In this document: positions 23,470 through 60,655 of the stretch, piece after piece
How positions within the stretch are numbered: the first letter of the stretch is position 1
Layout: every line of letters begins with the position of its first letter
Assembly: GCA_000403415.2 (NCBI GenBank)
Contig: KE159692.1
Span: 469,947-533,946 of the forward strand
Origin: Firmicutes bacterium M10-2
GTDB lineage: Bacteria > Bacillota_I > Bacilli_A > Erysipelotrichales > Erysipelotrichaceae
Length of the DNA stretch: 64,000 bases
Reading direction: 5' to 3'
Notes under the pieces: generated by a model
The model's database searches: none
Told to the model about the DNA's origin: nothing
The model's input: only the letters and a program-made list of their open reading frames with translations
Position numbers and translations under genes: made by a program

Positions 23470-23478
23470 TGCTACTCT
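23470..23478 (+). promoter_or_regulatory. Extended -10 promoter placed for a leaderless mRNA
   Basis: TGC-TACTCT (extended -10 TGn) ends 7 nt before the ATG at 23486. No Shine-Dalgarno sequence is present. Confidence 0.45.
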
Positions 23479-23485
23479 AAAAAAC

Positions 23486-24325
23486 ATGGATAAAAACAAG
23501 AAAAAAACAGAAGAAATGCTCACGATTTTAGCCGTGTGTGCCGCAAGCATCGTTTTATGTTGCGTAATCTTGCTGTTTGACAGAAAAAGCGATTCCGAAA
23601 TCGCGCAAGAAACAATCGAATCGACAACAATTTCAGAAAAGGAAAATAATCTGAAAGAACTGCAAGAAGAAATCGATCAGTATCTGAAGGAAACCGCAAT
23701 TTCGAAAACCGATATCGGATTCTATGTGGAAGATCCGGAAAGTAATCAGACAATCTCGATCAACGGAGATCTTCCTTTTTTCGCCGCAAGCACATATAAG
23801 CTTCCTCTTGCAATGGTGTGGTATGACCAAATCAATGCCGGGAACGCTCAATTGAGCGATTACTATGATGCACTTGAGAACATGGTTGTCAACTCGGATA
23901 ACGATACAGCAGAATATTTGTTTGAAAGCTTAGGCGGTTGGGAAGCCTATAAGCAACGCATTGCTTTTTATGATCCCCAACAGGAAGTGAATTCCGAATA
24001 TTTGGCAACAGACAACGTCTTTACACCGGACAATATGGGACATATTTTACGATATTTATATGATCATAAAGATGCCTATGATCAGTTGATCAAAGATATG
24101 AAGAAGTCGCATCCCGGACAGTTTCTCGATCGCAATTTGAATATTTATTTCGCTCAAAAATACGGTTCGTATGAAGATGCTTACAATGCAGTCGGCTTGT
24201 CTTTGACAAGTAAAAAACCTTACATTATCGCGATTTATACGAATCTTGGCGAATACGGAGAAGAAGTTATCGGTGATTTAAATGAAATTTGTTTTGAATA
24301 TTTCAACAACAACGTGGAAAAATAG
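23486..24325 (+). CDS. Membrane-anchored serine hydrolase of the class A beta-lactamase fold
   Basis: 279 aa. One N-terminal membrane helix (about 11-31), a short coil, and a penicillin-recognising fold with SxxK as S102-TYK105 (AASTYKLPLAM) and SDN at 137-139 (VVNSDNDTAEYL). The third KTG box is replaced by SLTSKKPYIIAIYT, as in non-lactamase relatives, so antibiotic hydrolysis is not expected; a peptidoglycan-related or unknown esterase role is likelier. The ATG at 23486 has no ribosome site but sits 7 nt after an extended -10, suggesting a leaderless mRNA. An ATG at 23453 also lacks one. Confidence 0.8.
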   Translation: MDKNKKKTEEMLTILAVCAASIVLCCVILLFDRKSDSEIAQETIESTTISEKENNLKELQEEIDQYLKETAISKTDIGFYVEDPESNQTISINGDLPFFAASTYKLPLAMVWYDQINAGNAQLSDYYDALENMVVNSDNDTAEYLFESLGGWEAYKQRIAFYDPQQEVNSEYLATDNVFTPDNMGHILRYLYDHKDAYDQLIKDMKKSHPGQFLDRNLNIYFAQKYGSYEDAYNAVGLSLTSKKPYIIAIYTNLGEYGEEVIGDLNEICFEYFNNNVEK

Positions 24326-24374: not shown

Positions 24375-24383
24375 TGGTATAAT
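24375..24383 (+). promoter_or_regulatory. Extended -10 promoter placed for a leaderless mRNA
   Basis: TGG-TATAAT (24375-24383) ends 6 nt before the ATG at 24390, so transcription should begin at or next to the A of the start codon. The -35 region is weak (TTTTCA at 24356-24361). Confidence 0.7.
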
Positions 24384-24389
24384 ATTTTC

Positions 24390-24632
24390 ATGTTAGACGA
24401 CAAAGAAATCCAGGAAATCATTGAGCCGATCATTGAAGTGTTAAAATCCCTAGAAAAGGAACTCGGATCTACTCATCTTATGGAGGTGCCATCGATTCAT
24501 TTTGTACGAAATGAGCAGACAGCCGACTTTTTATTAGGAACACATCAACTCGACGAAGAATCGATTCAACAAATTGAAGAGTATTTACAACAAGAAATCG
24601 AGAGCATGTATCATCCGACAATTTTACATTAA
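24390..24632 (+). CDS. Small acidic protein of unknown function, 80 aa
   Basis: MLDDKEIQEIIEPIIEVLKS then a middle part with HLMEVPSIHFVRNEQTADF and a helical end. No family recognised; acidic, soluble, no signal. Coding character is good, and the ATG directly follows a consensus -10 with no ribosome site, so it probably has a leaderless transcript. It lies between the serine hydrolase gene and tRNA-Leu. Confidence 0.65.
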   Translation: MLDDKEIQEIIEPIIEVLKSLEKELGSTHLMEVPSIHFVRNEQTADFLLGTHQLDEESIQQIEEYLQQEIESMYHPTILH

Positions 24633-27901: not shown

Positions 27902-28447
27902 TTAAATGTGTTCGATAATCACTTTTACAACATAAAGGACAGTGGAAACCGTCAAGATCGATACGGCCCGATTGTATGTTTTCTGCTTTCCTTCCAGCAT
28001 TCCTTTCAAAGAAATGATGACCTGTTCCAGATCGAGGATCATTTTTTTTGCGAGCTCATTGGAATTCATATGCATAATCGCTTCACTTGTAAATTTAGAA
28101 CTATCAAGCTCTTTATCTCGATTGCTTGTGGAAAGACGCAACGTGAGCAATGTCGCACCGAGCATTCCGACAAGGGAAGAGATTGAGCAAATTTGATACA
28201 CACATGTATGCAATGTCGTTTGCGCATTGGCAAAGTTCCATCCTTCCAACATTTCTTTCCAATGCATATCATTGACGACCACAATCAACAAGGCAGACAT
28301 GAATGCAATCAAGATTGATACTTTTTGGAAAATATCATCATGCATGCGCAAAAGCCGTAAATATTGTGTATAGCATACCATTCCGATCACAAAATATTGA
28401 GGTTCGATCATTTGAGGATCGACAGGGGTTCTTGTTTCTTGTTCCAT
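27902..28447 (-). CDS. Membrane protein of unknown function, 181 aa
   Basis: Three membrane segments: a pair (VSILIAFMSALLIVVV and SISSLVGMLGATLLTLRL), a cytoplasmic helical stretch of about 55 residues, and a last helix AVSILTVSTVLYVVKVII. This 2TM-coil-1TM plan resembles SLATT/Pycsar-type membrane effectors, but no nucleotide cyclase or synthase gene is adjacent, so a defence role is unsupported. The ATG has AAGGGT immediately before it and a TACAAT six bases upstream, so its transcript may be leaderless. It follows the DUF4317 gene by 44 nt. Confidence 0.6.
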   Translation of the reverse strand: MEQETRTPVDPQMIEPQYFVIGMVCYTQYLRLLRMHDDIFQKVSILIAFMSALLIVVVNDMHWKEMLEGWNFANAQTTLHTCVYQICSISSLVGMLGATLLTLRLSTSNRDKELDSSKFTSEAIMHMNSNELAKKMILDLEQVIISLKGMLEGKQKTYNRAVSILTVSTVLYVVKVIIEHI

Positions 28448-28491
28448 ACCCTTATTGTACGCATCCTCATTTTAAAAATCCCGTTTGATGC

Positions 28492-29628
28492 TTATGGCCG
28501 TAATTCGATCCCGTTGATTTCGACTGTATCATCCATGGCGATCACGATGCATTTTCGCCCGTTGATCGTTTCCATCTTCACTTTCGTATCTCCGCCGTTT
28601 TTTACATTAATCGCAATATCGGGAACTTTGATTGCCATCCGATTCGTATCGATCATATTGACTGCTTTCAATGATTGATCCCCTAAAACTTTCGTATAGA
28701 CTTCATCAAAATGAGACATCGATTGTTCATCTGCACCTGAAAATTCAAGCAGTCTTTTCACATCCGATTTCGAATAGGTGATCTCGCTTGGATCTTCTTC
28801 GCTTTCTTGAATATTGTCGTAAATATTTTCATGAATCGCAGTCAACACATCGCAATGCAGACGATCTTCGAACATACCGATCAACATTTGCGAAAAACCG
28901 CTCTCTTCATCCAAAGGAGACATCGGCATATTGCAGTGCAGCACATCTTCGATCAAAAACGGATTGATCGATTTCATCGTTTTGGCATGATAAAGCACAT
29001 GATTGACATCCGCAGCCCGTTCCGAGAAGCAAGGATACAATATCGCATCATCCGGATTGGATTTGATTTCCATTTCCGAATTGACCTTTCGCTCTACTTC
29101 ATTGGTTTCCCTGTTGTAGTAAAGACCGATTGTCGTCTGGGTTGCCGGAACGATCGATACAAGAATACAAGCGTATTTATAGCCATCCTCATAGCTTGCT
29201 TCCAAATTTTTCGATTTCAAAGGCACCGAATATTCGCAATAGGCCACTTGAATATAAATATGATTCGTATAATGTCCGTTTTCTATCAAATCTTGAACAA
29301 ATTCGCGAAACATTCCCTCATCTTCCAATTTGCTGTTCAAAAGTGAATACAGCATTTCCTGTCCGGGATTTTTCTCACCCGCTTCTTTAGGAAAATGAAA
29401 CTGCAGTAAATTCTTTCCTAAATTTCCGCTTAAACTCTTTTTCATGATATTCAAATAAAGTGTTCCTTCTTCTTCGGACATCAAAGAAAAATCTTTTATA
29501 TCGTACGAGAGCACTTTCTTTTCTTCGGAGCTGATCGATGCGTATGCCGTTGCGATCCGCGGAATATAAAACAGATCGTTTTCCCACTTGATCTGTCGTT
29601 TTAGTTCATTGAGTTCTTTTTTGTTCAT
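28492..29628 (-). CDS. DUF4317 family protein
   Basis: 378-aa soluble protein. Family blocks: MNKKELNELKRQIKWENDLF at the start, YASISSEEKKVLSYDIKDF and YEDGYKYACILVSIVPATQT. The DUF4317 family is widespread in Bacillota and has no assigned function. The ATG at 29628 follows GAGGAGAG. It overlaps the end of the GNAT gene upstream by 23 nt, so the two are probably co-expressed. Confidence 0.82.
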   Translation of the reverse strand: MNKKELNELKRQIKWENDLFYIPRIATAYASISSEEKKVLSYDIKDFSLMSEEEGTLYLNIMKKSLSGNLGKNLLQFHFPKEAGEKNPGQEMLYSLLNSKLEDEGMFREFVQDLIENGHYTNHIYIQVAYCEYSVPLKSKNLEASYEDGYKYACILVSIVPATQTTIGLYYNRETNEVERKVNSEMEIKSNPDDAILYPCFSERAADVNHVLYHAKTMKSINPFLIEDVLHCNMPMSPLDEESGFSQMLIGMFEDRLHCDVLTAIHENIYDNIQESEEDPSEITYSKSDVKRLLEFSGADEQSMSHFDEVYTKVLGDQSLKAVNMIDTNRMAIKVPDIAINVKNGGDTKVKMETINGRKCIVIAMDDTVEINGIELRP

Positions 29629-30253
29629 TTTTTCTCTCCTCTTGCTCCAGTTTATCACAATCTTCCGTTGGATCGTAATAGAGATCATACAAGTTCATAT
29701 CATCATGAAGATTTCTTACCTTTTTCAATCGAAACCCCAAATGAATATATTTTTCCATTTTTACTTTCTCATCTGTTTCCACAATACAAAGACAATCTCT
29801 TTCTTTAGCCATCTGCTTGACATATTCAATGAGCTGGCGCATCAATCCTTGGCCCCAAAACGCTTGTTGAATCGCCAACAGTTCAATATGGATAAAGCGC
29901 TTCTTTTTTTTACGCAGCACCACTTCCTGAGGATCACCGATTTGCGTGCCGTGATCCATCATTTTATACATTCGCCATGGCCCTAAAATGAAACTAAATC
30001 CCCATAAAAGACGAACATATTGACCAATCGGCGTAATGGTCGATTCATTGGAAATCATCATATAAGCGTGATCATCCAGCGAGTAAATATCACAATAGAC
30101 CTTCATGACCGAAGTAGACAGTTCAATATAGCGCATGATCATTTTTTCATCTTTAAAGCCGTCAAAAGAAGCGGAAGCATGGGGATAACGGGCAAATGAT
30201 TGAGCGATCGAGAGCATTTCGCTATGTGTTAAATTCTCTTTCCTTTTTATCAT
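29606..30253 (-). CDS. GNAT-family N-acetyltransferase
   Basis: 215-aa acetyl-CoA-dependent transferase of unknown acceptor. The GNAT core is in the second half: HIELLAIQQAFWGQGLMRQL (strand 4 and the acetyl-CoA pyrophosphate loop, QxxWGQG), then LCIVETDEKVKMEKYIHLGF. The start at 30253 lacks a ribosome site; instead a promoter, TTGCCA-17-TACCAT, ends 6 nt before it, so the mRNA is probably leaderless. A longer frame to 30313 would start inside the promoter. It is co-transcribed with the DUF4317 gene. Confidence 0.8.
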   Translation of the reverse strand: MIKRKENLTHSEMLSIAQSFARYPHASASFDGFKDEKMIMRYIELSTSVMKVYCDIYSLDDHAYMMISNESTITPIGQYVRLLWGFSFILGPWRMYKMMDHGTQIGDPQEVVLRKKKKRFIHIELLAIQQAFWGQGLMRQLIEYVKQMAKERDCLCIVETDEKVKMEKYIHLGFRLKKVRNLHDDMNLYDLYYDPTEDCDKLEQEERKNEQKRTQ

Positions 30254-30259
30254 AGCTTT

Positions 30260-30288
30260 ATGGTACCTTGCAGAGAAAATTTTGGCAA
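30260..30288 (-). promoter_or_regulatory. Promoter of the GNAT gene, placed for a leaderless mRNA
   Basis: Minus strand TTGCCA (30288-30283), 17-bp spacer, TACCAT (30265-30260), then 6 nt to the ATG. Confidence 0.65.
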
Positions 30289-53948: not shown

Positions 53949-53957
53949 TGCTAAAAT
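53949..53957 (+). promoter_or_regulatory. Extended -10 promoter placed for a leaderless mRNA
   Basis: TGC-TAAAAT ends 6 nt before the tmcAL ATG. No Shine-Dalgarno sequence lies between. Confidence 0.6.
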
Positions 53958-53963
53958 AACATT

Positions 53964-54980
53964 ATGAAAACTTGTGGAATTATCGTAGAATACAACCCAA
54001 TGCATAAAGGGCATATTTATCATTTGCAGCAAGCAAAAAAATTAAGCGGATGTGACATCCTCATTGTTGTTCTTTCTTCTTATTTTACCCAGCGTGCTTT
54101 ACCTTCTTTGATCGATCCCTACACAAAAACAAAACTTGCGATCGAACACGGAGCCAATATCGTGATTGAACTACCAAGTGTATACGCTGCCCAAAGCGCC
54201 GATCATTTCGCACGCTTTGCGATTGAAACCTTGGCGAATATGAATGTGGACTGTATTTGCTTTGGTTCGGAAACCAACTCCATTTCCCAGTTGGAAACGC
54301 TTGGATATGAACTGGAAAAGCTTGAAAAAGATCAGACAACAAGTTGGCAAAAAAATATTGCCCGCAAGATCTGTCCGAATGACATTCTGGGCATTCAATA
54401 CATTAAATACGCAAAAGAACATCATATCGTCCCGATATGCATTCAACGAGATCAAACATTCAAAAGTGCCACTCAAACAAGAAAAGATTACTTTTCGGGA
54501 GAAGAACAGTTTTTAGATGATACGTTTTTATCGGAACAGCAATGGAGTTCATATTACCCTTACTTGCGATTGTTTCTTTGTATGAGCGAGCCGAAAGACC
54601 TTGAAAAATATCATTTAGTCACCGAAGGAATTCAATATCGGCTGATTAAAAACGCAAAATTATTCCGTACTTGGGAACAGTTCTTGGAGGCATCCGTTTC
54701 CAAGACATATACACGCGCTCGCATCCAAAGAACATGTCTTTTTTTGATGTTGCAGATCACAAAACAAGAAATGAAAGAAAACGATCATTTCAACAGTTCG
54801 ATCCTTTTAGGATTCGATTCGATCGGTCAAACCTATTTAAACGAAATCAAAAAGGAGCAAACGGTATTCACAAAATTCAGCCAGCTGCCGCCTTTTTTAA
54901 AAAAAGTGCACCTTAAAAGCAAACTGCTCTATGAAAGCGTACTAAACGATCCTGTAAAGGAGGGTGTTTATGTTGGTTAA
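53964..54980 (+). CDS. tmcAL: tRNA(Met) cytidine acetate ligase
   Basis: 338-aa YlbM-family nucleotidyltransferase that makes ac4C at the wobble base of elongator tRNA-Met. HxGH nucleotide site in EYNPMHKGHIYHLQ, then DILIVVLSSYFTQRALPSLI and IELPSVYAAQSADHFA. It is shorter than the Bacillus enzyme (about 415 aa), being reduced at the C-terminal end. The location next to yceD-rpmF matches Bacillus. The ATG lies 6 nt after an extended -10 with no ribosome site. It overlaps the next gene by 11 nt. Confidence 0.92.
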   Translation: MKTCGIIVEYNPMHKGHIYHLQQAKKLSGCDILIVVLSSYFTQRALPSLIDPYTKTKLAIEHGANIVIELPSVYAAQSADHFARFAIETLANMNVDCICFGSETNSISQLETLGYELEKLEKDQTTSWQKNIARKICPNDILGIQYIKYAKEHHIVPICIQRDQTFKSATQTRKDYFSGEEQFLDDTFLSEQQWSSYYPYLRLFLCMSEPKDLEKYHLVTEGIQYRLIKNAKLFRTWEQFLEASVSKTYTRARIQRTCLFLMLQITKQEMKENDHFNSSILLGFDSIGQTYLNEIKKEQTVFTKFSQLPPFLKKVHLKSKLLYESVLNDPVKEGVYVG

Positions 54981-59716: not shown

Positions 59717-60384
59717 ATAGCGATAGGTAATCCTTTGAAGTTATCTTCGGATTTTCCCCCGCTCCACACCGTGCATGCGACTTTCACCGCACACGGCGTT
59801 CCATCGATAAAAACCGACACATAAAAACGCGAACTTCCCTTATGTATGATTTTTATCGACTGATGTCCGTCCCTCTTCAAGATTTTCGTCTTGCCTCATC
59901 GGTACCATGACATCGCTTTCACCAGATCAAATGGATTTATAGGAATAACCTCTTATGTCCAACCGCTTCAACGTAGGCAAATCCTCAGCGTATCTGGCTT
60001 CCCACGTTCCGTTTTGTCTATCCATCCATACGACCCTTAGATGCTTGCTATGGTCGCCGATACTTTAGACGCGCCGTGCACGCGCCAAGGTCTTTCATAA
60101 CTGCGATTCTTACTTGACCTCATATCAACGTTTCCGTACATTCGCAAGTTTGTCAGAGAAAATCTCATTCTCATCATAGATCGTTTTTCGGACGACCGGC
60201 CATATATTTCAATGCCGCCTTCACCGAGCTTCTTACCACGGACTTTTGCCAAATCCATCGCAAGTCGGAGTCTTATCGGGAATGTTTCAAGACGTTACTC
60301 TCTCATTCCATTCCTTGACAAAACAGTTCTCCGATCAATAAATGATCGTGTCTGGATTTTTATCGGTCCAGAAACGTGTCGCAC
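59717..60384 (-). mobile_element. ORF-less group II intron interrupting recJ (668 nt)
   Basis: Minus strand begins GTGCGACACG (the GUGYG intron start) and ends CGCTAT (AY end). Domain V is at about 59766-59799: CGCCGTGTGCGGTGAAAG, then TCGCATGCACGG, with a CGC catalytic triad and GUGAAA loop. Domain VI follows to the 3' end. Candidate EBS1 at 60099-60105 pairs with IBS1 at 60385-60391 (5 Watson-Crick pairs, 2 wobbles). Domain IV is only a hairpin (stem TCGATAAAAA / TTTTTATCGA), so no reverse transcriptase/maturase is encoded. Splicing must rely on a maturase from elsewhere. Confidence 0.9.
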
Positions 60385-60580
60385 CACAGTCGTAATCTCC
60401 GGCAACAAAAACTTTATCGCCGTTTCGTTTCATGTCCTCCATCATTTCTTTAAAAGATTCCATTTCCGGATCTTGGCTTGGAGCGTACAAATCAGGACGA
60501 TCAAGCCATTGCTGTTGTTTCGTCGGATCCGGTTCCAACGTTTCTAATATCATTTTTGCTAATGGTGTCAAACTTTTCAT
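60385..60580 (-). CDS. recJ: RecJ single-strand exonuclease, 5' exon
   Basis: 65 codons plus one base: MKSLTPLAKMILETLEPDPT at the start and VFVAGDYDC at the end; the last base is the G of the next Asp codon, completed (G-AT) by the first bases of the 3' exon. The ATG at 60580 has no ribosome site but lies 9 nt after TATAAT, so the leader is at most a few bases. Upstream, at 60600-60627, a 14-bp A-rich unit is tandemly duplicated. Confidence 0.88.
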
Positions 60581-60655
60581 ATGCCTACTATTATATCTCA
60601 AACAGAAAAAAAGAAACAGAAAAAAAGACCGCTAAGCAAGAGCTCATGATCGGCC

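Follow-up and report, generated by a model that had tools for sequence, protein, structure and literature searches.

A promoter box six nucleotides before the start codon marks a predicted class of leaderless genes in the Erysipelotrichaceae

In the genome of Firmicutes bacterium M10-2, a member of the Erysipelotrichaceae, a group of genes lacks a Shine-Dalgarno (SD) sequence and carries a -10 box that ends 6 nt before the start codon; about 3% of the genes in this genome are predicted to be of this leaderless type. We consider it very probable that these boxes are promoters of leaderless mRNAs, which would be translated from a 5'-terminal AUG without SD pairing. The stretch analysed here (hereafter the window) spans 64,000 nt of contig KE159692.1 (positions 469,947 to 533,946), and a preliminary description of it had proposed, from several such sites, that leaderless-type starts are in systematic use. 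This proposal is backed by counts over the genome itself, by counts over the family and by the retention of the 6-nt spacing in orthologues.

Upon re-reading the sequence, we found all six of the box and start codon layouts cited in that description in their places. Three stand exactly as claimed, each with 6 nt between box and ATG: the extended -10 box TGG-TATAAT (TATAAT at 24378-24383) before a gene for an 80-aa protein (24390-24632; layout at 24375..24392, plus strand), TGC-TAAAAT (TAAAAT at 53952-53957) before ATG 53964 of tmcAL (53964-54980; layout at 53949..53966, plus strand; Pfam PF05636, HIGH_NTase1), and TACAAT before ATG 28447 of a gene for a 181-aa protein (27902-28447; layout at 28445..28459, minus strand). 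The same holds for recJ, where TATAAT lies 9 nt before ATG 60580 of exon 1 (60578..60595, minus strand), a near-leaderless arrangement that would leave a leader of about 2-3 nt. For the remaining two, the arrangement was as described and the box proved poor. At the gene for a GNAT acetyltransferase (so assigned by Pfam; 29606-30253, minus strand), TTGCCA (30288-30283), 17 nt, TACCAT (30265-30260), 6 nt and ATG 30253 follow one another within 30251..30288, with TACCAT matching only 4 of 6 positions; at a beta-lactamase-fold gene (PF13354; 23486-24325, plus strand), TGC-TACTCT (TACTCT at 23473-23478) is followed by 7 nt and ATG 23486 (23470..23488), with a box that matches 3 of 6 positions, making this site weak and uncertain. 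The 23486 and recJ sites are the weaker ones of the window, and the 23486 and GNAT sites, taken singly, are weak enough that chance could have produced them. The accompanying statement that a strong AGGAGG-type site precedes nearly all the remaining genes was overstated, as the SD match reached at least 5 nt in 39 of the 61 genes called in the window, 4 nt in 9 and at most 3 nt in 13.

By its ParE, the bacterium stands nearest to an uncultured Faecalitalea (84%) and to Holdemanella biformis (81%), two members of the Erysipelotrichaceae. We then turned to a sample of 864 kb of the 2.4 Mb genome, consisting of two 400-kb pieces (with an N content of 14.8 and 2.4 kb) and the window, in which a simple home-made gene caller, blind to -10 boxes, yielded 792 usable genes. 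These genes were divided by their SD match and by the amount of free upstream DNA, with SD-less genes defined by a match of at most 3 nt. Of the SD-less genes, 79 had 40 nt or more of free upstream DNA, and in 14 of these a box matching at least 5 of 6 positions was located at spacing 6; boxes of the same quality were located at spacing 7 in 3 cases and at any other spacing in 0-5. None of the 219 SD-led genes (SD of at least 6 nt, at least 40 nt free) had a box at spacings 3-9; their boxes mostly lay in the usual place, 17-38 nt before the start with a peak at 21-22. The preliminary description had suggested counting the motif genome-wide against a shuffled control, and in 1000 dinucleotide-preserving shuffles of the same upstream sequences the mean was 0.53 spacing-6 boxes and the maximum 3, placing the 14 observed well above chance. 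When the SD was ignored and the 5'-most ATG was taken as the start of each gene (n = 742), spacing 6 still gave 17 boxes, versus 0-5 at each of the remaining spacings between 3 and 9; the spacing-6 peak is thus independent of SD scoring and robust to the choice of start. Twelve of the 14 cases start with ATG and two with GTG, the latter being near-identical repeated copies, so that about 13 of the 14 are independent. These two gene starts (C1 200705 and C12 222666 of the genome) share the layout TATTAT-N6-GTG within a repeated element that is probably mobile; a leaderless GTG start there would be unusual.

To characterize the promoters, we used a set of 24 leaderless-type genes with spacing 6-7, a box matching at least 4 of 6 positions and an SD of at most 3 nt, restricted by choice to ATG starts; the GNAT gene was left out because an AAGG beside its box gives it an SD score of 4. 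RNA polymerases favour a pyrimidine followed by a purine about 7 nt past the -10 box, and in all 19 spacing-6 genes of the 864-kb sample the base before the ATG is a pyrimidine (C or T), as expected if the RNA begins at the A of the ATG. A pyrimidine occupies this position in 367 of 607 SD-led genes (60%) and in 36 of 84 other SD-less ATG genes (43%). The box is preceded by TGn in 13 of the 24 leaderless promoters, compared to 35 of 127 leadered ones (p = 0.012), while the -35 match is barely higher than in shuffled sequences (2.79 vs 2.62).

These features suggest the following course of events. The housekeeping, sigma-70-type RNA polymerase would recognise the -10 box, often TGn-extended and usually with little or no -35 element. 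As the box ends 6 nt before the ATG, the A of the ATG itself would be the standard start, for which a purine preceded by a pyrimidine is used 7 nt past the box. The RNA would therefore open with AUG; at spacings 7-9, its first base would lie no more than 1-3 nt from the AUG. Ribosomes would then bind the 5'-terminal AUG without SD pairing. The transcription start point, initiation of the 70S type and any effect on expression are what we infer from this arrangement, and at any single gene a second promoter may lie further upstream.

Functionally, the leaderless set is mixed, including RNA modification, transcription regulators, FtsW/RodA, RecJ and others. Pfam searches of the 24 genes identified RNA-related proteins and regulators (a SpoU rRNA methylase, a PP-loop ATPase, TmcAL, and RpiR, AraC, TetR, MarR-radical-SAM and HTH proteins) alongside FtsW/RodA, VTC, YaaA, a GDSL hydrolase and an EF-G-like protein, and several genes had no match. 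The EF-G-like protein, an 829-aa GTPase encoded by a leaderless-type gene on C1 of the genome (L016:2755-5244, minus strand), carries a C-terminal YacP-like NYN nuclease domain; in B. subtilis, YacP is Rae1, a ribosome-associated endonuclease.

The layout is also retained in relatives. The 80-aa product of the 24390 gene matched nothing in Pfam or NCBIfam. This gene occurs in 6 of 41 genomes, our own included, with members that are 33-100% identical. All six have TATAAT followed by 6 nt (five) or 7 nt (one) and ATG, SD matches of at most 4 nt, and alignments that begin with residue 1 at the shared ATG. Directly downstream of this gene in the window lies a tRNA-Leu gene (24678), and a tRNA match also lies beside the orthologue in a genome of the same genus (G001; L042). 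This genome retains the layout at three of the window's genes: at the 24390 gene (N6), at the 181-aa gene, which is present only in G000 and G001 of the 115 family genomes (TACAAT-N6-ATG in G001, hence the layout in 2 of 2), and at the GNAT gene (TACGAT-N7-ATG). The start of the 23486 gene has no clear conservation there.

For tmcAL, we compared loci comprising the best 30 of a search of the family and the best 30 of a search of the class, a selection weighted towards nearer relatives, from which one truncated locus was removed. The 41 family loci, counting the truncated one, comprised 26 leaderless starts (22 at N6), 13 SD-led and 1 with neither, and the 16 loci from other families comprised no leaderless starts, 15 SD-led and 1 with neither. 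Counting N6 boxes whatever the SD, we found them at 23 of 40 family loci versus a shuffle mean of 1.4 and a maximum of 5, using starts set by a chooser that favours SD or leaderless starts. Of the 26 leaderless loci, 25 have a pyrimidine before the ATG and 24 align from the first residue with offset 0. SD matches in the leaderless-type orthologues of both tmcAL and the 24390 gene are mostly 0-3 nt, and at most 4 nt. The hexamers themselves vary (TAAAAT, TACTAT, TATGAT, TAGACT, TACACT, TATCAT and TATAAT), with TA...T and the register alone being retained. On the sequences compared, then, the box-N6-ATG layout outlasts change in the rest of the upstream DNA. It is not required for tmcAL, since this gene has an SD-led GTG start in G001.

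A similar history emerged from recJ, for which 30 loci were tallied by eye, one of them truncated and set aside. Outside the genus, 27 orthologues were readable. Those of nearer genera, 16 in number, show the leaderless layout, with a box at N6-N8 (N6 in 11) and a start aligned with that of exon 1, apart from one that starts 10 codons earlier; in the other 11, which belong to more distant genera, the start lies 8-16 codons earlier and has an SD-like match of at least 4 nt. The two loci of the own genus have N9 (the window) and TATAAT-N7-ATG (G001). At individual genes, the layout is of long standing in the family, and in some lineages it alternates with SD-led initiation. The window's recJ is itself interrupted by a group II intron that has no ORF and is 668 nt long (59717-60384, minus strand; 5' GTGCG, 3' AT; Rfam RF02004 and RF00029), which sits inside the DYDCDG motif, with flanks that continue in the frame of intact relatives. 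The intron is also found in G001, and recJ is intact in those of the compared relatives from other genera that have a complete 5' end.

To follow the layout across whole genomes, the pattern TGnTAnAAT-N6-ATG was searched as TGNTANAAT-N5-Y-ATG, with the same pattern at a single decoy spacing, 12, as the control; a backward-pattern control was rejected as unfair, TATAAT itself being enriched over its mirror. The own genome gave 24 matches vs 5 at spacing 12. The 115 family genomes gave 2127 vs 473, sums that include two genomes with zero in every search (G002 and G018) and that repeated elements raise in some genomes, such as G070; the excess was seen in 105 of the 115, G002 and G018 being among the 10 without it. 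The remainder of the class sample, 135 genomes, gave 1168 vs 758, unevenly distributed: families f3, f8, f16 and f19 showed a 3.3-6.5-fold excess (94:27 in f8, 33:10 in f16, 52:8 in f19). Since excesses that are smaller than or comparable to this one also occur elsewhere in the class, the trait is not confined to the Erysipelotrichaceae, and f8 and f19 are possibly further lineages that use it. Family f16 includes genomes with an in-frame TGA in tmcAL, consistent with a Mycoplasma-type code. In 200-kb samples, among SD-less genes with free upstream DNA, N6 boxes were located at 10 of 68 in four family genomes, and at 0 of 54 in f2 (two genomes), 1 of 5 in f14 (one genome) and 1 of 19 in f4 (one genome). 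Loss of ribosomal protein S21 or S1 failed as a marker of a leaderless clade: 37 of the 41 relatives have S21, and a full-length S1 match above the cut-off was found neither in the own genome nor in any of the 41 relatives, with both families alike.

Could these genes instead be transcribed from further upstream, as leadered mRNAs without an SD, the AT-rich box merely keeping the initiation region unstructured? Leadered initiation without an SD has been described in other phyla, according to the retrieved part of one report (PMC5397173); a route through S1 is conceivable, though not favoured given the lack of a full-length S1 match above the cut-off in the genome. However, AT-richness as such would explain neither the distance of exactly 6 nt between TAnnnT and the start nor the enrichment of TGn, the pyrimidine before the ATG in 19 of 19 genes or the register kept in orthologues; we regard this explanation as very unlikely. 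It is highly improbable, too, that the start codons are wrong, such that translation truly begins downstream, behind an SD, and the box serves a leadered gene as its ordinary promoter. The starts do come from a home-made caller, and in the more distant recJ relatives an SD-led start lies 8-16 codons earlier. Yet the alignments of orthologues begin with residue 1 at a shared ATG (tmcAL 24 of 26, the 24390 gene 6 of 6), and this alignment, with the spacing-6 peak at 5'-most ATGs, led us to reject miscalling for the class as a whole.

AT-rich DNA between genes often contains TATA-like hexamers, and single weak sites such as those of 23486 and the GNAT gene could be of this kind. As an account of the class, chance is next to negligible, being ruled out, those two sites aside, by the shuffle tests and the spacing control over 115 genomes, with the orthologue footprints also standing against it. 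Promoters of leaderless mRNAs remain the reading that we favour. A further and more doubtful possibility is that leaderlessness itself is selected at particular Erysipelotrichaceae genes (tmcAL, recJ, the 24390 gene and others). These might form a mixed class of low-output or stress-tuned genes, with translation governed by the ribosome's treatment of an AUG at the very 5' end. Such a class would have persisted since the family arose even as its promoters diverged, with single genes joining or leaving it over time.

With the predicted class, leaderless initiation that is conserved at the level of single genes would reach a common family of gut bacteria close to the Mollicutes. SD-based start calling can be expected to misplace some gene starts in this family, and tmcAL and recJ, leaderless-type in one clade and SD-led in the next, would offer a natural experiment on switching between modes of initiation.

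The preliminary description called leaderless translation uncommon in Bacillota. This holds, in the portions of the sources retrieved, for C. difficile (15 leaderless genes; PMC7438776), three clostridia (about 2-3%; PMC9045289) and enterococci (<1%; PMC7724050), and not for streptococci, where 8-9% of mRNAs were mapped as leaderless by RNA sequencing (PMC6431027, PMC4448216). Nine leaderless transcripts are listed for M. gallisepticum (PMC4245973), leaderless genes have been measured in gut species (PMC4782308), and they have been predicted across bacteria, Mycoplasma included (Zheng et al. 2011, PMC3160421). Our literature search found no report of leaderless genes in Erysipelotrichaceae or Erysipelothrix, the co-mentions concerning other matters judging by titles and the beginnings of abstracts.

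The TA-led genes of Zheng et al. (PMC3160421) resemble ours in lacking an SD, in carrying TANNNT some 10-12 bp before the start and in having a frequency above shuffled controls. Their Firmicutes cases, however, are mainly Lactobacillales and Mycoplasma, with no mention of Erysipelotrichaceae in the text retrieved, and relative to that text gene-by-gene footprints over one family are what is added here. Streptococcal leaderless mRNAs likewise start with AUG, the RNA beginning at its A in 90% of cases in S. agalactiae, and are likewise shared across species, 81% of the S. pyogenes cases also being found in S. agalactiae (PMC4448216, PMC6431027, as excerpted); they differ in being RNA-mapped and in their share of mRNAs, set against about 3% of genes predicted from sequence in our genome. 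In Deinococcus-Thermus, TANNNT just before the ORF also drives leaderless transcription, spacing matters and the -35 element is optional, yet about one-third of D. radiodurans genes are involved and the element was tested by mutation, whereas the class described here is predicted from sequence; the domain-wide scan of that study (Fig. S7) may include Bacillota (PMC12340547, in the parts retrieved). Leaderless genes are thus a known class, to which the Erysipelotrichaceae would be added as a family with unusually clear footprints.
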